From positions 1 to 27,791 of IMG/VR virus record IMGVR_UViG_3300022918_000230: a stretch of 27,791 nucleotides of DNA; one strand, 5' to 3'. The DNA is from a virus. The first letter of the stretch is position 1; every line of letters starts with the position of its first letter. Positions 2,765 to 18,936 of the stretch are shown here, piece by piece. The notes beneath the pieces are model-generated. The model was not told the DNA's origin. It saw only the letters and a program-made list of their open reading frames with translations, and did not search any database. The translations under genes and the position numbers were made by a program.

Positions 2765-2793
2765 ATTCTCGATTACGACATGCAATGCGTCAA
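2765..2793 (-). promoter_or_regulatory. Sigma-70 promoter of the int-attL cassette
   Basis: On the minus strand a -35 box TTGACG (2788-2793) is followed by a 17-base spacer and a -10 box GAGAAT (2765-2770), 5/6 and 4/6 matches to consensus. The predicted start is near 2758, about 30 bases before the ATG at 2727. This would let the cassette be expressed in the lysogen independently of PL. Confidence 0.6.
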
Positions 2794-2811
2794 AGTTTTA
2801 ATTTTGACGCA
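2786..2811. promoter_or_regulatory. Palindrome over the cassette -35 and the int stop codon
   Basis: GCGTCAAA (2787-2794) and TTTGACGC (2803-2810) form a perfect inverted repeat with an 8-base AT-rich centre, extended to 9 bp by T2786/A2811. It covers the -35 box of the cassette promoter and the integrase stop codon. No T-run follows, so it is more like a protein-binding site than an intrinsic terminator. The binding protein is unknown. Confidence 0.45.
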
Positions 2812-3995
2812 AGGGTATCTTCTTGTTGTTTATCGGTTTTTATATCTCCGCGCTGTAAAAATGCCAGCTCTGCTCTTTGTCCAGCACCAATATCTGCTGC
2901 GGGCATCCATCGTCCATAGACTCGCGCAATCATCGTCCAGTCGGTATGCCCCATCTGTTTGGCTACCCACATAGGGTGCTCACCGGCGGAAAGCATCATC
3001 GAAGCGTAGGTGTGTCGGGTCTGGTAAGGCCGCCGATACCTGACGCCTGCTTTCTTCATGGCAGGTACCCACATAGTTTTGCGTATTGGCCCGTCGCCTG
3101 CCCATCGCTCCAACGTCCTGGGATTTTGAAATACTTCAGCGTCTGCCAGGAACGTATGAGCCTTCTGGGCCGTTAATGCTTCCATGGCTGGCCTGAGCAG
3201 CTTCACGCTTCGCCGGCCCGCGGATGTCTTTGTAGTCTCGGCCGTACCCTTCGCTGCCTGGGTCATAGCGCGGGTCACCATTACCTCTTCACGTAGCCAG
3301 TCGATATCGCCCCAGTCCAGGGCGACCAGCTCGCTGGTTCGCAGGCCAGTCCAAAGGGCGAATTGCATCATGTTGCGCGCCTGGCCGGTAAGGGCGCCCA
3401 GCACGGCCTGTTGTTCCTCCGGGCTAAAAGGGTCTACGTCGTCTTCCTTGGGAGGCGCTTCTTTCCGGGTATAGGTCCAGCCGGCCATAGGGTTAAGGTC
3501 GATTAATTCCTCTTCCGCAGCGTCATTCAGCGCAGAGCGAAGACAGCTCTGAATATTGCTAAGCGTTTTATTGCTCACTAGCAGCGTATCGAGCCAGTCA
3601 CGGATAGCCTTTCGCTTGAGATCGACCACCATGGTTTCGCCCAGGGCAGGGATGAGACGCAGCTCCACGAGCTTTCGATAGCCATCGAACGTGCTGCTAG
3701 CCACATGCTTGCGTTTGGCAGCCAGCCACCTGGTTAGGAAACCGTGCACAGTTTCCCGCGACGCCTCCGGTGCGAACTTATCTGCCCGGGCAGAGCCAGG
3801 GAACGTAACGGCATAATCGAACGTGCCAATGGATATCGCGTGCTCGATCGCCGCCTTGTGCTGTTCGGCCTTCTTTAGATTAGTGGGGGAGGGCTTGAGT
3901 GTGATGCGCTCGCGGCACCGGACGCCCCGATACATGAACGTGATTTCGATACTCGTATCGGAGACCGCCCGAACTCCCCGCCCGCCTCTACCCAT
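2790..3995 (-). CDS. int: Tyrosine-family phage integrase
   Basis: The 401-aa protein catalyses site-specific recombination between phage and host att sites. Residues 1-65 resemble a DUF3596-type arm-site-binding domain (GVRAVSDTSIEI, YRGVRCRERI), 80-175 a SAM-like core-binding domain, and 190-365 the catalytic domain. The active-site set is R219 (TGLRTSE), K256 (TKTSAGRR), R327 with Y324 in place of the usual His of HxxR, H350 (MGHTDW) and Y360 (VYGRW). The start at 3995 fits the conserved MGRGGRG opening of this family and makes the gene overlap xis by 121 bases. It lies about 1.5 kb from the putative attL, separated by the accessory cassette. Confidence 0.95.
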   Translation of the reverse strand: MGRGGRGVRAVSDTSIEITFMYRGVRCRERITLKPSPTNLKKAEQHKAAIEHAISIGTFDYAVTFPGSARADKFAPEASRETVHGFLTRWLAAKRKHVASSTFDGYRKLVELRLIPALGETMVVDLKRKAIRDWLDTLLVSNKTLSNIQSCLRSALNDAAEEELIDLNPMAGWTYTRKEAPPKEDDVDPFSPEEQQAVLGALTGQARNMMQFALWTGLRTSELVALDWGDIDWLREEVMVTRAMTQAAKGTAETTKTSAGRRSVKLLRPAMEALTAQKAHTFLADAEVFQNPRTLERWAGDGPIRKTMWVPAMKKAGVRYRRPYQTRHTYASMMLSAGEHPMWVAKQMGHTDWTMIARVYGRWMPAADIGAGQRAELAFLQRGDIKTDKQQEDTLASKLKL

Positions 3996-6464: not shown

Positions 6465-7295
6465 TCACGCCTTGCGGCCATTCCATATGAACAGTACTTT
6501 GGCATGAATCGTTACGTCATCGACTCTGGCGGTCTGATTTTCGTAATGCTGGTTGTCCGAGATCAATCGATAGTGATCTTCGTCGAGTCGCATCATCCGC
6601 TTGATGTACAACTCCTGATGCCAGGTAACGACATAGATGCCTTCGCCAATGAAGTCCTTCACGCCACGATCAACGATAACCAGATCCTTGTCATTGATCG
6701 TGCCTTCCATGCTCTGACCCCAGCCGGTGATCATCGCTAGTGCTGAGGCGGCAGTATAAGTAACGCCTTTCTCGCGAAGGATTTCTTCACGTACCACCAG
6801 ATTCCGCACAGCCTCGTTGTAGTCTGCCGGAACTTGGCCGTGGCCCATTGCCCCGCGCACGTCGTACTGGGGAATCAGGATCTCTTCGCTGTTAGGGCGT
6901 AGGGCTGCATGGTTCGCTAGCGTTATATTGGACGCATTCTCAGTAGTTTCTTCCGCTGCTGAAACAAGCCGCTGGCGAGCTTCGTCCGATAAACCCCGTC
7001 CATGCTTTTCAAGCATGGCACGCACGATCTCGGAGGATGATTTCTGAGGCCGCGCCTCTGCCCCTATATCTGAACCTTCGGATACAGACTGAATGCTATC
7101 CAGCCAGCCATGCGGCAGGCCCTGGAGCGCTTCAATTCTCCGGGCCACGTCGTCGCCCAAATTCTTGGGCGTTTTGACTGAGAGAATTTGACTCAGGTGT
7201 GCCGGACTCATCCCCCAGCGATCGGCACAGGCAGACTTCCTCTGCTTGCCAATCAGCATGATGAGGTTTGCTTTTCTGATTTCGTAGATATCCAT
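6465..7295 (-). CDS. cI: CI-like repressor, HTH plus S24 peptidase domain
   Basis: The 276-aa protein has an N-terminal HTH (about 8-60, KSACADRWGMSPAHLSQIL) and a C-terminal LexA/CI-type S24 domain (about 140-272). The Ser-Lys dyad is S195 (GWGQSMEGTI) and K232 (ELYIKRM). The linker has no Ala-Gly or Cys-Gly dipeptide; the place where cleavage is expected reads Y-D-V-R-G-A-M-G-H-G (144-153). It should bind the TTTAGC-N5-GCTAAA sites and hold the lysogen. It diverges from Cro across the three-operator region. The ATG at 7295 has only a distant AAAGGA; the next Met, at codon 13, is less likely. Confidence 0.9.
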   Translation of the reverse strand: MDIYEIRKANLIMLIGKQRKSACADRWGMSPAHLSQILSVKTPKNLGDDVARRIEALQGLPHGWLDSIQSVSEGSDIGAEARPQKSSSEIVRAMLEKHGRGLSDEARQRLVSAAEETTENASNITLANHAALRPNSEEILIPQYDVRGAMGHGQVPADYNEAVRNLVVREEILREKGVTYTAASALAMITGWGQSMEGTINDKDLVIVDRGVKDFIGEGIYVVTWHQELYIKRMMRLDEDHYRLISDNQHYENQTARVDDVTIHAKVLFIWNGRKA

Positions 7296-7382: not shown

Positions 7383-7410
7383 CTCCTGTATGCACCGAGG
7401 AGAACATCTT

Positions 7411-7761
7411 ATGAATGACCACTTACGCAAGTGGTTGGCGAACTCGACCGTAAATGACCGTGAACGGGTTGCCCTCAAGGCGGGGACGACGGTCGGTCAC
7501 TTGAGGCAGTTGTCTGGCGGACACCGAAAAGCTTCGGTTGATTTGGCAGAACGCTTGCAGGATGCCTCAAGCGGCAGCATCACGATTGCCGGTCTACGGC
7601 CGGATTTGGTCGTCATCGCTGAAAAAATTCTCATGGGAGCCTCGCTGGTTGCCGGGGCAAATGCCTTGCCCACCTTGGAGCAAAAGATAAACCCAATCCC
7701 AGTTGCTGATCAGTCCGCCAACCCTGCTGTGAATTCATCCAGTAGCGGTGAGCCGCAGTGA
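7411..7761 (+). CDS. cro: Cro-like HTH repressor
   Basis: The 116-aa product begins MNDHLRKWLANSTVNDRERVALKAGTTVGHLRQLSGGHRKAS, a YdaS/Cro-type HTH. The C-terminal third (after about residue 75) is low-complexity and Ser/Asn-rich. The start at 7411 is set by GAGGAG eight bases upstream; an in-frame ATG at 7390 coincides with the predicted transcription start and is rejected. As first gene from PR it would repress the cI promoter in lytic growth. Its stop overlaps the next gene's GTG (GTGA). Confidence 0.8.
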   Translation: MNDHLRKWLANSTVNDRERVALKAGTTVGHLRQLSGGHRKASVDLAERLQDASSGSITIAGLRPDLVVIAEKILMGASLVAGANALPTLEQKINPIPVADQSANPAVNSSSSGEPQ

Positions 7762-7943: not shown

Positions 7944-7997
7944 ACAAGCGCCCATCCCAGTATTTGTTGACCGGCTGACTTTCCAGCAGGCAACAAA

Positions 7998-8046
7998 AAG
8001 CCCGCTTCGCAGGCGGGCTTCTTAACCAGACCCTTCGCAGGGGTCT
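7998..8046 (+). terminator. Tandem hairpins in the tR1 position
   Basis: The first hairpin is AAGCCCGC (7998-8005) / GCGGGCTT (8013-8020), and the second is AGACCC (8028-8033) / GGGTCT (8041-8046). Both loops begin TTCGCA. T-tracts are short (TTCTT, TTCG), so termination may be partial. The place between cro and the replication genes corresponds to lambda tR1. Confidence 0.6.
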
Positions 8047-8081
8047 TCGTACTACTACGTCTATTTACAAGGACAGCACTT

Positions 8082-8150
8082 ATGCACCCGAAAAATAGCA
8101 CCGGACATGAACGGATGCAACAACGATCTAAGAAGGCGGCGGCTCTATGA
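8082..8150 (+). CDS. 22-aa leader-type peptide upstream of the protease
   Basis: The short frame MHPKNSTGHERMQQRSKKAAAL has AAGGA about 8 bases before its ATG and ends in TGA overlapping the ATG of the next gene (ATGA). The peptide is basic (K and R at 7 of 22 positions counting His). The good ribosome site and exact overlap suggest it is translated and couples translation into the HEIGH protein. Confidence 0.5.
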   Translation: MHPKNSTGHERMQQRSKKAAAL

Positions 8151-8944
8151 GAACCAACTCCACTATTCGGCTCGGTCGCATCCAGTACCGCGAGCTTGCC
8201 GGTCTGGCAAAACAGGCTGGCTGCTGCCTAGGGCTTTCGACATTTGAAAAGCTTGGCTCCGCCTGGGGAATGTTCAATCCCTTCGCTGTTGCCGTCCACG
8301 AAGATGTTTCGAAACCTGAGTATGAACTTGAGGAACGGGTCGTCATTGAGCTTGCTACTACCGTCGACCTGGCCCGCCTGCGCAGCGTTGTGCGCCCAGA
8401 AATCGACTGGGCCAACCTCGATGACGATGAAGCCTTCAAGTTCATAACGCATCACGAAATCGGGCACTACGTTGACAATCATTCTGGGTTTAGCGCTTTC
8501 GGTCTTGTTGATACGGATGACACACACATCGACCTGATCCGAGCGTTCTACGCGCTGTCGGTGCTATTCAAGCGCAAGACTGGTCACGAAGCCAAGCAGG
8601 TCGCTAAAGATCACTGGGAGGCGATGGGCCGCCACCTACTGGAGGGTGCGCCACTGCCTGACCAGCAAATCCCGCTCGTTACCGCACCCGTTGTGCCTAT
8701 GCCACCAGCAGCTTTTGTTGGGCTGACAAATCTGGAATTGGCGTGCGCGGCTTTCAACTACAGCGACCAGGTGCACGAATCGCTGATGGATCATTCGCCG
8801 AAAGCATTGGCCATGTCCCAAGCGCGGGTGACAGCTCTTGACGCCACGACCGCGCTTCGCAAGTTGGTACTCCGCCTTTCTGGCGGATCAGTGGCGGCGC
8901 GGGGCTCCAAGATCAAGCGCCAGCCAGGGGAGACTCTGCAATGA
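8147..8944 (+). CDS. Zincin-like protein with HEIGH motif
   Basis: The 265-aa product carries H103-E-I-G-H107 in FITHHEIGHYVDNH, the HExxH zinc-binding and catalytic motif of zincin metallopeptidases. This layout recalls ImmA/IrrE-type proteases, but no HTH is attached and the third zinc ligand cannot be assigned by eye; E143-H156 downstream is a candidate region. No signal peptide is seen, so it acts in the cytoplasm. Residues 165-200 are Pro-rich. It lies between the cro region and the replication genes, overlaps the leader peptide and the O-like gene by ATGA, and would be made early. An anti-repressor or host-factor protease role is inference. Confidence 0.7.
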   Translation: MRTNSTIRLGRIQYRELAGLAKQAGCCLGLSTFEKLGSAWGMFNPFAVAVHEDVSKPEYELEERVVIELATTVDLARLRSVVRPEIDWANLDDDEAFKFITHHEIGHYVDNHSGFSAFGLVDTDDTHIDLIRAFYALSVLFKRKTGHEAKQVAKDHWEAMGRHLLEGAPLPDQQIPLVTAPVVPMPPAAFVGLTNLELACAAFNYSDQVHESLMDHSPKALAMSQARVTALDATTALRKLVLRLSGGSVAARGSKIKRQPGETLQ

Positions 8945-9696
8945 GTATGGATTCGATGGTCAAGGCCATGAAAACCAAGGTAGGGAACCCGCTGCGCAAG
9001 TTGGTGCTTATCAAGCTCGCCGACAATGCCAACGACCAGGGCGAATGCTGGCCTTCCTATCAGCACATCGCTGACCAGTGCGAGATAGATCGGAGCACTG
9101 TGCGCCGACATATCAAAGAGCTGCAAAGTCAGGGATTGCTGCGCATTGAAAATCGCGACGGCCCGAAAGGTAATTCCTCAAACCTGTACTTTTTGACGCT
9201 CTCAGCGGTAGGCCAAAAAAGCATAGCTGTAGGCACAAAAAGCACAGGTGTAGGCACACAGCCTACAGGGGGGGTAGGCCCAGAAAGCACCAGAACCAGT
9301 CACTCTTCTGAACCAGTCATTGAACCTAAACCTTTGTGCAAAGCGGACCCAATGGAAGGGTTTGATCAGTTCTGGAAACTGTACCCCCGCAAGGCGAGTA
9401 AGGGTTCGGCTGAGAAAGCGTGGAAGAAACTTTCCGTCACGCCTGATCTGTTCAACCTGATGTTGGAAGCCCTGACCAAACAGGCCACCAGCATCGACTG
9501 GCTCAAAAGTGGAGGCCAATACATTCCGCACCCGGCGAGCTGGCTCAACTCGCGGCGCTGGGAAGATGAATTCCCATGCAGCCGTGTTGGCACCGGCAAA
9601 CCATCCAGCCAAACCCCGCTCAGCCAGATCGACTACGAAGAAGGTCTTGACCTCGACGAACACGGCCACTATCGAATTGCAGGTAACGCCAAATGA
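8941..9696 (+). CDS. O-like replication initiator with winged helix
   Basis: The 251-aa protein has an N-terminal winged HTH (about 10-75: NPLRKLVLIKLADNANDQGECWPS, IDRSTVRRHIKELQSQGLLRI), a repetitive linker (about 90-115, with VGTKST-type repeats) and a C-terminal domain starting FDQFWKLYPRKASKGSAEKAW, which in related phage proteins contacts the helicase or loader. The linker DNA contains the iterons described separately, the same arrangement as ori inside lambda O. It overlaps both neighbours by ATGA. Initiation role is inferred from architecture and from the loader and helicase that follow. Confidence 0.8.
   Translation: MSMDSMVKAMKTKVGNPLRKLVLIKLADNANDQGECWPSYQHIADQCEIDRSTVRRHIKELQSQGLLRIENRDGPKGNSSNLYFLTLSAVGQKSIAVGTKSTGVGTQPTGGVGPESTRTSHSSEPVIEPKPLCKADPMEGFDQFWKLYPRKASKGSAEKAWKKLSVTPDLFNLMLEALTKQATSIDWLKSGGQYIPHPASWLNSRRWEDEFPCSRVGTGKPSSQTPLSQIDYEEGLDLDEHGHYRIAGNAK
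9208..9295 (+). repeat. Iterons, candidate phage replication origin
   Basis: GTAGGC begins four repeat units at 9208, 9229, 9250 and 9274, spaced 21, 21 and 24 bases, each followed by a mostly A-rich then GCA-containing stretch. An inverted copy GCCTAC lies at 9261-9266, forming palindromes with its neighbours. The direct repeat GAACCAGTCA occurs twice just downstream. Iterons inside an O-like gene are the lambda-type origin plan. Confidence 0.55.
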
Positions 9697-10481
9697 CCAC
9701 CAGACCGAAGTACACAATCGAAACCCGGGCCGGCGAGTGCGAGCACCACGGGCAATACCCCAACTCCCTTGTTGAGCAGTTCGGCGCAGATCCGGCTTGG
9801 TATGGCTGCCCACGGTGCCACTTTGACGCGCGCCACTCGGTCGACCTGGATATATCGGCGAAGGCCGGATTGGTGCAGCGCCAGCGACTACTGGACGAGC
9901 GTCTGCTCAATGCTGGTATCCCGCCGCGCTTCCAGACCTGCACACTCGATACTTGGGCTGCCGGGGATGACGCGAGCAAGCTTAAGGCGTGGAACTACGC
10001 CACCGGTTACGTGGAAGCCTTCAGCGAAAACTTCGAGGTGGGTCGTTCCATGATGCTGTTGGGACAGGTGGGCACCGGGAAAACCCACCTTGCCACTGGC
10101 ATCCTGCAGCAGGTGATCCGCAACTTTGGCTCACAGGGCTTGTTCGGCCGCTACGCCACCGCCGGCGGCATCATCCGCAGCGTCAAGGACACGTTTGGCA
10201 ATCAGGGCAAAACCGAGTCACAGGTCTACGCGGATCTGATCGCACCACATCTGCTGATCATCGACGAGGTGGGCGTTCAGCACGGCACCGACTTTGAGCG
10301 CACGGTGCTGTTCGAGGTGATTAACGGCCGCTACGAGCAACTGAAGCCCACCATCGTGGTGAGCAACCTTGGCTTGCCAGATCTGCGCCAATGCCTGGGA
10401 GATCGTGCAGTTGATCGACTGAGGGATAAGGGCGGGCTTGTGGCCCTGTTCCGCTGGGAATCGGCGCGGGGTGCAGCATGA
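9693..10481 (+). CDS. DnaC-like helicase loader ATPase
   Basis: The 262-aa protein is an AAA+ ATPase of the DnaC/IstB type. Walker A is G124-QVGTGK-T131, Walker B is LLIIDE with D191-E192, and a sensor-like VVSN follows near 226. The N-terminus has C16 and C39-x2-C42, a possible zinc-binding module. It should deliver the DnaB-type helicase encoded next to the origin melted by the O-like protein. ATGA-type overlaps join it to both neighbours. Confidence 0.88.
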   Translation: MTTRPKYTIETRAGECEHHGQYPNSLVEQFGADPAWYGCPRCHFDARHSVDLDISAKAGLVQRQRLLDERLLNAGIPPRFQTCTLDTWAAGDDASKLKAWNYATGYVEAFSENFEVGRSMMLLGQVGTGKTHLATGILQQVIRNFGSQGLFGRYATAGGIIRSVKDTFGNQGKTESQVYADLIAPHLLIIDEVGVQHGTDFERTVLFEVINGRYEQLKPTIVVSNLGLPDLRQCLGDRAVDRLRDKGGLVALFRWESARGAA

Positions 10482-11851
10482 GTCGCGACCTGTTCAACAT
10501 CGAGGCCGAGCACGGCCTGCTGGGCGCAATCTTCATCGAGCCGACGCTGCTTGACGAGATATCCAGCAAGGTGGATATCTCCGACTTCTACGAAATCGAG
10601 AATGCCGCGCTGTTCAGGGCCATCCTGGACTGTCACGCCGCTGGCGACCCGGTCGATGTCGTGATGGTTAGCGAGCACCACCAGTACATGCCTGATGGCA
10701 GTAGCATGCTGGCGTATGCCGCACAGGTCCACGCAGGCGCTCAGGGAACCTCGAGCTGGAAGACATACGCACGGGTTATCCGCGAGCGTGCCGTTCTGCG
10801 CAAGGTTGTCGAGACGGCGACGTCGATCAGCCAGTCAGCCAATGATGATTTGCCGGTGGCGGAGATCATCGCGCGCGGGCAGCAGGCAATGGCAGACTTG
10901 CGCGACCTCGACGACGGCGAGCCTGATTACCATCAGGTGAAAGACATCCTGCCCTGGGTGGTAGATACGATCGATGCCAAGTTCAATAAGACGGCACCCA
11001 AGGGTCTGGGCACTGGCCTGCCCGATCTGGACAAGATGATCAGAGGGCTACGCCCTGGGAACATGGTGGTCGTCGCTGGCCTTCCAGCCTCCGGCAAAAC
11101 CATCCTCGGCGTGCAGATTGCCCAGCACGTCACCACTCGTTTGGGCGGTTCCGGTCTGGTGTTCTCGCTGGAGATGACCAAGGAAGAGTTGGTGACGCGC
11201 AACATCGCGTCACTTGGCTCCGTGGATCTGACCCGGCTGGACGAGGGCGAGAGCATTCAGGACGAGGACTGGCCGCGCATCACCAGTGCCGTCAACCAGC
11301 TCAACAGCGCCCGACTCTATGTGTGCGATCAGGCAGGCATGACCGTTGCCCGTATCCGCTCAATTGCACGCCAGTGCCAACGCCGTGAAGGGTTGGACGT
11401 GATCGTGGTCGACTACATCACCCTGATCAACGGGGAGGGCGGGCACAACCGGACGCTTGAGGTCGGCAAGATTTCCACGGCGCTGAAGAACTTGGCCAAG
11501 GAGCTCAAGGTGCCGGTGATCGTGCTGGCGCAGCTCAACCGCGGGCCAACCAATCGCCCCGATAAGAAACCACGGCCCAGCGACATACGCGACAGCGGCC
11601 AGATCGAGCAGGACGCCGATGTCGTCATCTTGGTGCACCGCGATGGCGACAGCGAAGAGGGCGCCAATGGTGTCACCCAACTTATCGTTGGCAAATGCCG
11701 TCACGGCAAGCCGGGCGATTGTCTTGTCCAGGCCCAAGGGCAATTCGTGCGTTTCGTGCCATTTGGCGGCAAGCCACCCTCAGACGAACAGGTCGAGATG
11801 GGCCGCGTGGTGAAGTTCACTGGCCGCGCCCGGGGCCCAGTCGATGAATGA
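10478..11851 (+). CDS. dnaB: DnaB-type replicative helicase
   Basis: The 457-aa protein has the DnaB N-terminal domain (about 5-105, EAEHGLLGAIFIEPTLLDEI), a linker, and a RecA-like motor domain. Walker A is G201-LPASGK-T208, Walker B is VIVVDYI near 310, and the H4-type segment LAQLNRGP follows near 348. It should form the hexameric ring that unwinds phage DNA 5'->3'. The length matches the family. Having both loader and helicase makes the phage largely independent of host DnaB and DnaC. Confidence 0.93.
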   Translation: MSRDLFNIEAEHGLLGAIFIEPTLLDEISSKVDISDFYEIENAALFRAILDCHAAGDPVDVVMVSEHHQYMPDGSSMLAYAAQVHAGAQGTSSWKTYARVIRERAVLRKVVETATSISQSANDDLPVAEIIARGQQAMADLRDLDDGEPDYHQVKDILPWVVDTIDAKFNKTAPKGLGTGLPDLDKMIRGLRPGNMVVVAGLPASGKTILGVQIAQHVTTRLGGSGLVFSLEMTKEELVTRNIASLGSVDLTRLDEGESIQDEDWPRITSAVNQLNSARLYVCDQAGMTVARIRSIARQCQRREGLDVIVVDYITLINGEGGHNRTLEVGKISTALKNLAKELKVPVIVLAQLNRGPTNRPDKKPRPSDIRDSGQIEQDADVVILVHRDGDSEEGANGVTQLIVGKCRHGKPGDCLVQAQGQFVRFVPFGGKPPSDEQVEMGRVVKFTGRARGPVDE

Positions 11852-13199
11852 CCTGGTGAAAACGCTTACGGTCATCATGACTGACGCCGAAATCCGCCGG
11901 CATGCGGACCGCTCCCATGTCCGTGCTCTGCGCGATGCTCGCCACCCAGCACTGCACTTTCGTTACTCCACCGTCGACCGCGCCCGAGGGTCATGGCATG
12001 TGGTGGTGCGCGGCAAGTGGGGCAAGGCCGGTAACTATCCCGGTATCAACGCCAAGCTGATGCAGTCCACGCTCCCAGCGATCCTCGCGCGCCGCTCGGC
12101 TGATCCCGCTGCGGCCTCGACCACCAGCAGCTGGACGACTGTCGGCGACGTGCTGGCCTGGTACACCGACAGGATGACGCGCGACCGTGGCCTGTCTGCC
12201 AAGCGCAAGGCCAGCGCCCAGTCAGCACTCCGTTGCCACCTGGTGCCAAAGCTTCAGCATGTGGAGTTGGCCAGCCTCAACCGAGCAGCGCTCGACAAGC
12301 TGCTGATGTGGCCGATGCAGGAAAAATATGAGCTGTCGTTTGTGCGTTCGGTCTATGGCGTTCTGGCCGCAGCATTCCGGCAAGCGACACGCCTGGCGCT
12401 CGTGGGAACGAACCCCATGGCCGACCTCAAGTACAGCGACTTTGTCCGGACGCGCATCAAGCCCAAACCCGCGCGGTTGCGGGGCGATGATCTGCCGGCG
12501 CTGCTGGTGGACCTGCAAGAGCGAATTGATCGCGCACCGTTGGAGTCAATGCTGGCGCTGCTGATGCTTTGCCACGGTACTCGCCTCGGGGAAACCCGGC
12601 TGGCCCGCTGGAAAAACGTCAACGTAAAAACGGGTCAATGGTTCATTCCGGCGCCAGATACCAAGACCAAGGCAGAGCACATGCTGCCGCTGACCCGCCA
12701 AGCCTGCGCCCTGATTGAACGTTACCGGGCCATGCAACTGGCGACCGGTTATCAAGGGCCTTTCCTGTTCCCTGGCCGATCTGGTGATGCTATCAGCGCG
12801 ACCAAGGCCAGCACCTTGTTTGCCGGGATGGCTGGGCGTGAATGGTCGAGCCATGACCTGCGCAAGGTCGCCCGCACTGCTTGGGCCGATCTGGGCGTGG
12901 ACTACATGGTGGGCGAGATGCTGCTCAACCATGCGATGAAAGATCTCGACGCCACCTACATCCACACCACCGCCGAAGGGCTGAAACGCCAAGCCTTGGA
13001 ATCGTGGCACGACCACCTCGACAAGCTCGGACTTGCTCCACTGCATAACGGGACATGTGCGGGACGCGAATCGATGACCGAAAGCGAGCAAGCCAATAAA
13101 ACCGTGGCCTGTAGCGACAATCTGCATCCATCCCAAGGGAGGAGGTTAATAGACAAAACGACCGCCAACCAGACCCAGCCAGGAGACGGCAATGAGTAG
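11844..13199 (+). CDS. Second tyrosine recombinase, in the replication operon
   Basis: The 451-aa protein carries a full tyrosine-recombinase active site: R247 (CHGTRLGE), K274 or K276 (DTKTKAEH), H337-x2-R340 (SHDLRKVART), H363 (LLNHAMKD) and Y372 (ATYIHT). The N-terminal 1-85 resembles an arm-binding region, 97-200 a core-binding domain. It overlaps dnaB by 8 bases; an alternative start is Met12 (MTDAEIRRH). The C-terminal 45 residues are a Glu/Asn/Thr-rich tail. It is unrelated in sequence to the integrase at 2790-3995 beyond the active site. Placed after the helicase, it may resolve replication products or serve another site; att function is unproven. Confidence 0.85.
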   Translation: MNDLVKTLTVIMTDAEIRRHADRSHVRALRDARHPALHFRYSTVDRARGSWHVVVRGKWGKAGNYPGINAKLMQSTLPAILARRSADPAAASTTSSWTTVGDVLAWYTDRMTRDRGLSAKRKASAQSALRCHLVPKLQHVELASLNRAALDKLLMWPMQEKYELSFVRSVYGVLAAAFRQATRLALVGTNPMADLKYSDFVRTRIKPKPARLRGDDLPALLVDLQERIDRAPLESMLALLMLCHGTRLGETRLARWKNVNVKTGQWFIPAPDTKTKAEHMLPLTRQACALIERYRAMQLATGYQGPFLFPGRSGDAISATKASTLFAGMAGREWSSHDLRKVARTAWADLGVDYMVGEMLLNHAMKDLDATYIHTTAEGLKRQALESWHDHLDKLGLAPLHNGTCAGRESMTESEQANKTVACSDNLHPSQGRRLIDKTTANQTQPGDGNE

Positions 13200-17370: not shown

Positions 17371-17959
17371 GGTTCCGTCCATCATCTTGCCGTAGGGGCT
17401 CTGAAGATAGCACGGAGCCACTAGCCGCCACTGAGCGGTTTTTTTATATCTGAATTTTGCGCAAGCGGCAGACACAGCAAGGGTTCACGTTTTGAATCAA
17501 GGCGAAAGCCCCGGCTCCTTGCTCTCCGGGCGCAGATAGGCGTTTGGGTTGCGACTACGCGGCCGGCGTCGAACACCCCGTTGCATCCGGGGTATTTATT
17601 CTTTTCAAGTTTGTGTGTGCAGACCACTGCCAGGGTGGGCCTTCGGGCGGGCCTGGACATCGATTCGCCGGTTAGTGCGATGTACAGAAAAACACCGGCA
17701 GCCAGTGTGTCTCAAACCTCGTTTTGCTCCGGGGCGGATCTGGCGGACAGGCGTGGAAAGACACGCATTTTATGCAGGTGATCAAAGCCCGGCACGGTCG
17801 TAGCGTTAGGCCGGTCAAAGCGCAGGGGTAACAGTCAGCGTGGGGACTGTAGGGAAACGCCACGACAGCGACCTGAAAGGGTTGCCATCTGCACCCATTT
17901 CAAGCCTCGGCAAATGCCGGGGCTTTCTTGTTTACAGCTCCCCAAAGGGAGGACATCGG
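17371..17959. other. Non-coding stretch of about 590 bases with several hairpins
   Basis: No convincing gene is seen. Visible structure: ACCCCG/CGGGGT hairpin at 17575-17593; GCGTG/CACGC near 17750-17766; ACAGTC/GACTGT near 17831-17850; GGGT/ACCC near 17880-17896; then the terminator at 17902-17930. This could hold a late promoter and an RNA ending at that terminator. No -35/-10 pair could be fixed with confidence. Confidence 0.4.
17902..17930 (+). terminator. Intrinsic terminator before the lysis genes
   Basis: Stem AAGCCTCGGC (17902-17911) / GCCGGGGCTT (17916-17925) with one G-T pair, AAAT loop, then TCTTGTTT. The transcript it ends starts somewhere in the non-coding stretch upstream. Confidence 0.75.
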
Positions 17960-18835: not shown

Positions 18836-18936
18836 GGGGCCGTAGCTCAGCCGGTTAGAGCATACCCCTGCTGCACAGATCCAGTGTGCAGCAGACGAGG
18901 TGCGGGACAGAGGTTCGAATCCTCCGGCTCCACCCA
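18836..18936 (+). tRNA. tRNA-Ala-like RNA with abnormal anticodon arm
   Basis: Acceptor strands GGGGCCG (18836-18842) and CGGCTCC (18925-18931) pair with a G3-U70 wobble and are followed by A73, the alanine identity elements. The D-stem is GCTC/GAGC (18845-18848/18858-18861), and the T-arm is GAGG-TTCGAAT-CCTC (18910-18924), only 4 bp. In place of a normal anticodon arm there is a perfect 9-bp stem (18868-18876/18886-18894) with loop AGATCCAGT and an extra GACGAGGTGCGGGACA segment. The 3' end reads ACCCA rather than ACCA. It may be non-decoding. Confidence 0.6.

Follow-up and report, generated by a model that had tools for sequence, protein, structure and literature searches.

Genomic context of the HEIGH reading frame

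The window (i.e., the whole stretch of DNA that was analysed, the 27,791 bases of an IMG/VR virus record) carries at 8147-8944 (+) a reading frame of 265 amino acids, the product of which (P0001, hereafter the window protein) has an HEIGH motif at residues 103-107 (8453-8467, +). The frame is real, E104 was correctly numbered, and the early-operon placement proposed by the initial annotation is borne out by the neighbouring genes: a divergent CI-like repressor with an S24 peptidase domain (6465-7295, -), a Cro-like gene (7390-7761, +; phrog_35 with E 7e-5, and phrog_10248) and, from 8941, genes of the O, DnaC and DnaB types. A conserved early-operon leader with tandem hairpins (7951-8107, +) and a 22-codon stub (MHPKNSTGHERMQQRSKKAAAL; 8082-8150, +) lie upstream, the stop of the stub overlapping the start of the 265-residue frame (ATGA). 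At the other end, the start of the replication initiation O-like gene (8941-9696, +) overlaps the stop of the frame, and a DnaC-like loader and a DnaB-like helicase follow (9693-11851, +). By its sequence, the stub resembles a shortened form of a gene of ~110 amino acids (L139, in which it begins MTHPKNSTGHNRMQQQ). The CI-like repressor has the Ser/Lys pair of S24 peptidases (S195 in GQSM, K232 in YIKR), but shows RGAMG at 147, where an A-G cleavage site is expected in CI-type repressors, and its self-cleavage is uncertain.

Composition shuffles of the window protein produced an HExxH motif by chance in 2.6% of cases and the narrower HE[hydrophobic]GH in 0.075%, and the homology described below is stronger support for a non-chance HEIGH than this rarity. 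The window protein had no Pfam or NCBIfam match above cut-off (the best Pfam model, PF01435 of the M48 peptidases, scored 13.8 bits, below its cut-off of 20.3), and PF06114 (M78) matched neither it nor the intact relatives that were scanned. Searches with the whole protein by tblastn in phage and plasmid collections returned no match, and those of the PDB (by phmmer and profiles) nothing meaningful.

Two protein families in one reading frame

A family of intact HEIGH proteins emerged when the N-terminal half of the window protein alone served as query. It is present in 9 of the 398 Pseudomonas genomes and in 15 viral contigs, and turned up afterwards in further genomes; its carriers are Pseudomonas phages, prophages and further integrative elements. 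Its members are mostly 236-262 amino acids long, and codons 1-122 of the window frame (8147-8512, +) are homologous to the first half of this 238-aa family, residues 1-122 corresponding to positions 1-122 of a profile HMM built from 21 intact relatives (E = 2e-49). The two also share the early-operon slot ahead of the replication genes, and the homology of residues 1-122 runs end to end. At 67-70% amino acid identity to L005 (and with saturated dS), this half retains 32 of the 35 positions that are invariant in nine genome relatives, among them H103, E104, H107, D110 and N111; the HEIGH..DN block, invariant or almost so in the intact relatives, is thus kept. All complete relatives that were read (~31 sequences) combine HE[IVL]GH..DN with NE[ILMV]LADR[YF]AW, situated ~31 residues after HEIGH, and in the 21-member alignment N137, E138, L140, A141, D142, R143, A145 and W146 are invariant. 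The second segment is the expected third zinc ligand of the intact family. Judged by this homology, the peptidase-like part is the first half of the window protein only.

The intact relatives apparently form an unnamed family of phage zincins. Members that were scanned (the L005, L049 and L050 family) had no Pfam or PHROG match, and the family profile weakly detects a Pfam-confirmed Peptidase_M78 protein in G041 (E 2.7e-4). In the elements L040, L042 and L043 an integrase precedes the intact gene and a primase/AAA_25-type gene follows it, a layout that sets them apart from lambdoid phages; in integrative elements they adjoin an AAA_25 ATPase and a gene with a DnaG-type zinc ribbon (a weak assignment, below cut-off).

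The remainder of the frame (codons 123-265; 8513-8941, +) is homologous by profile HMM to residues 53-195 of phrog_14891 proteins. The PHROG collection matches residues 122-265 of the window protein only, and aligns them to positions 53-196 of the phrog_14891 model (E 6.8e-55). This half shares 82% amino acid identity with L014 and retains all 16 residues that are invariant in the phrog_14891 family; its dN/dS against L014 (about 0.10) is comparable to that between L015 and L014 (0.11). In L014 and in a Pseudomonas abietaniphila prophage (L001/L003) the phrog_14891 gene lies just upstream of O, as the fused frame does in the window. The P. abietaniphila match is confined to window residues 118-265, as the prophage protein has its own, different first 52 residues, devoid of HExxH. 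The first 52 residues of phrog_14891 (the VEVIDEENFEKYADAALLLKCFEVVKDTLDVINEPEYSIEKE region) are replaced in the window protein by the peptidase half, and on the evidence of its sequences phrog_14891 is a non-peptidase family. At L140:4001-4605 a phrog_14891 gene is split in two overlapping reading frames, probably by a frameshift.

The junction occurs once in the sampled loci

The two family profiles divide the window protein cleanly at residue 122, and the DNA places the changeover in the same region: homology to the peptidase family stops at 8483-8491 and homology to phrog_14891 begins at 8515/8516 in most matching loci, leaving a breakpoint interval of 8492-8514 (+). Across all fetched loci no reading frame besides the window protein matched both profiles, and a repeat search of the 398 genomes yielded relatives of one part of P0001 or of the other, with none matching both. 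A seeming second copy of the junction in L048 proved to be a spurious match, out of frame. The long phrog_14891 frames of L116, L138 and L144 were likewise discarded as further fusions, as a complete phrog_14891 protein starts inside each of them; their extra N-terminal residues are taken to be upstream read-through.

The single occurrence of the fusion, in an IMG/VR virus record, and our failure to find its junction in other viral contigs would suit an assembly chimera, a purely computational joining of two phage genomes. We regard such an artefact as very unlikely, since the reading frame is kept across the junction, the gene order is canonical on both sides of it, and the upstream gene has also been shortened to an ATGA-coupled stub, which suggests real deletions.

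Zinc site and structural models

In gluzincins a Glu on a helix after HExxH is needed as the third metal ligand. The AlphaFold2 model of the intact L005 protein (pLDDT 90, pTM 0.87) comprises a beta-sheet, a helix with HExxH (93-109) and a long helix (123-149) bearing E138. Foldseek found no significant match to this model in the PDB, while VIA re-alignment gave weak ones, among them MATCAP (Z 5.2), IrrE (3dti, Z 5.0; 88 residues aligned with rmsd 3.2 and 25% identity) and CapP (7t5t, Z 4.0). Matches to toxin metalloproteases were weak (Z below 4.5), and we read them as a shared zincin layout only. On these models the members of the intact family are likely IrrE/ImmA-like zincins.

After residue 107 the window protein has no NExxAD, ExxAD or ExxA motif. 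It is without NExLADRxAW, the RPGE motif and the C-terminal region of the intact family, and the segment in which the third ligand would be sought aligns with phrog_14891 and is modelled with low confidence. A zincin-like fold with a downstream Glu helix is predicted for the intact family, and this helix is absent from the window copy. In the model of the hybrid, the N-terminal half reaches a pLDDT of mostly 71-93 and resembles its counterpart in the intact protein; at the junction (112-121) the pLDDT falls below 50, and the pTM is 0.44, so that the two parts lack a defined arrangement. Fold matches to the hybrid were nearly all helical (ribosomal proteins, carriers), covered residues 182-265, and were uninformative on function.

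Considering the absence of the conserved third-ligand motif, zinc peptidase activity is unlikely, and the fusion, as read from its sequence, is probably not a working zinc protease. The initial annotation had likened the protein to ImmA, which cuts its repressor. Precedents for Xre repressors cleaved by COG2856 peptidases come from phages, transposons and other mobile elements (PMC8072749). The window protein has in common with IrrE/PprI and ImmA (M78/COG2856) the HExxH motif, and its intact relatives also the downstream Glu motif, whereas the downstream Glu helix is missing from the window copy. The likeness thus extends to a zincin-derived N-terminal half (given the IrrE and CapP fold matches and the M78 profile match) and ends where the third-ligand helix is replaced.

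That the protein is an active ImmA-like metallopeptidase which cuts CI, Cro or a host factor would accord with its intact HEIGH, with the weak resemblance of the intact family to the IrrE and CapP folds and with the COG2856 precedent. We nonetheless consider it extremely improbable, as the third-ligand motif is absent after residue 107 and the substituted segment has its homologues among proteins that lack HExxH; repressor cleavage in the manner of ImmA is unlikely for a copy in which an unrelated protein part has taken the place of the NExLADRxAW helix. Given the low confidence of the hybrid model, another residue (e.g., D129 or E148) might conceivably complete the metal site of the fusion. 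The Cro-like gene of the window lies 385 nt upstream, with the stub in between; in the relatives other small genes usually separate the Cro-like gene from the peptidase, unlike in the tight repressor-peptidase pair typical of ImmR/ImmA. As the intact family is also found in integrative elements, CI is not necessarily its target. CapP regulates host defence, and the weak zincin-half likeness to it concerns the intact HEIGH family only.

Origin of the fusion

We think it probable that the window protein is a natural in-frame fusion created by deletion and dead as a zinc peptidase; the deletion (rather than some other recombination), the loss of catalysis and any residual function are inferred. 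Relatives often carry in one early operon, in this order, HEIGH, an antirepressor, a small gene, phrog_14891, O, DnaC and DnaB. Both genes are separate in L049, L056, L057 and L044 (HEIGH, Ant, small gene, phrog_14891, O) and in L051, which is without the small gene. In L049, HEIGH is followed by a gene of 113 amino acids, one of the ORF6N antirepressor type, one of 102 amino acids, phrog_14891, one of 75 amino acids and O, and the other loci are similar; the domain of the intervening gene is ORF6N in L049 and Bro-N in L051. In the window no gene lies between the fusion and O.

Under the deletion reading, the 5' half would stem from an early phage gene that encodes a HEIGH-family peptidase of the zincin/gluzincin type, and the 3' half from phrog_14891, situated 0.7-1.4 kb further downstream in the same operon of relatives. 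Joining codon 122 to codon 53 would remove about 1.5 kb in L056 and 1.9 kb in L049. The lost stretch would then span about 1.5-1.9 kb between codon ~122 of the peptidase and codon ~53 of phrog_14891, and would have comprised the remaining peptidase sequence with its third zinc-ligand helix, the intervening antirepressor gene and the beginning of phrog_14891. At most, the C-terminal region of phrog_14891 would keep its original role.

An unfused parent phage or an intermediate was not found among the loci, and the nearest relatives of the two halves belong to different genomes (L005/L049 for the first, L014 for the second). Since mosaicism is common among temperate phages, the fusion could also have arisen by illegitimate recombination between two phages, one contributing the stretch from CI to peptidase codon 122 and the other phrog_14891 from codon 53 onward. 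This alternative, which competes for the origin only (the resulting protein being identical), is possible but the less likely of the two, as several phages hold both genes in cis and in the right order, where one deletion is enough. The occurrence of both genes in cis in relatives, together with the shortened upstream stub, makes operon deletions the simplest account.

Possible roles of the fusion and of its family

The window copy is a probable relic or new fusion, and possible residual roles are the phrog_14891 function or non-catalytic binding. As 32 of the 35 invariant positions of the N-terminal half are kept, the fusion is either recent or its N-terminal half still useful. The latter could take the form of a pseudoprotease, the zincin half of which binds its original substrate or partner uncut while tethered to the phrog_14891 part, and which acts as a decoy or dominant-negative regulator. 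The retained invariants, the good local confidence of the modelled N-terminal half and the single continuous reading frame, translationally coupled to its neighbours, speak for this idea, which we still deem unlikely: a catalytic domain cut in half may be unable to fold stably by itself (the junction pLDDT being below 50), and with one example known there is no sign of maintenance across phages. Even less probable, in our estimation, is a maintained regulator in which the dead zincin half recognises whatever the uncatalogued peptidase family targets, with a second binding function contributed by the phrog_14891 part; were it true, one tethered decoy would have replaced a protease and an antirepressor in this phage.

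The probable reading, that of a deletion-born fusion without peptidase activity, sets right an attractive annotation as an ImmA-like protease at the switch and illustrates how misleading a motif can be by itself. It also brings to light an apparently unnamed zincin-like family in the early operons of Pseudomonas temperate phages and in integrative elements, often beside antirepressor genes. Its intact HEIGH members are directly testable, and in the fusion the two halves of the family have been separated naturally.

Leader and other features of the window

Conservation of the leader (7951-8107), which follows the Cro-like gene, extends to at least 36 Pseudomonas phage loci. The leader contains a strong terminator-like hairpin (AAGCCCGCTTCGCAGGCGGGCTT) and a second hairpin, the stem of which varies between phages, and in this region a conserved AAAAATA(G/C)CACC comes directly after the start codon. 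The leader had no match in Rfam, and its RNAalifold consensus (on a MAFFT alignment) was weak. Within a phage the loops of the tandem hairpins match: 22 of 34 pairs share 5 or more bases versus about 5 expected by permutation ignoring relatedness, and, with relatedness likewise ignored, 0 of 5000 permutations reached the observed mean. The leader could act as an RNA element that a phage-specific protein recognises.

Directly after the leader, an MHPKNST-like 5' end is common to many different genes of about 100-140 amino acids (in L139, L081, L100, L137, L138 and others), the bodies of which differ, as if this 5' end were a shared module. Of such a gene the window carries the 22-codon stub only.

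Two integrase-like genes are present in the window. The first (2790-3995, -) matches P. aeruginosa phage DNA that bears an integrase or transposase annotation, and the second (11844-13199, +), with a Phage_integrase domain, comes directly after the DnaB-like helicase, as in L045. Rfam models additionally located a Proteo-phage-1 sRNA at 17624-17703 (+; 79.6 bits) and a tRNA at 18836-18932 (+; 36 bits).
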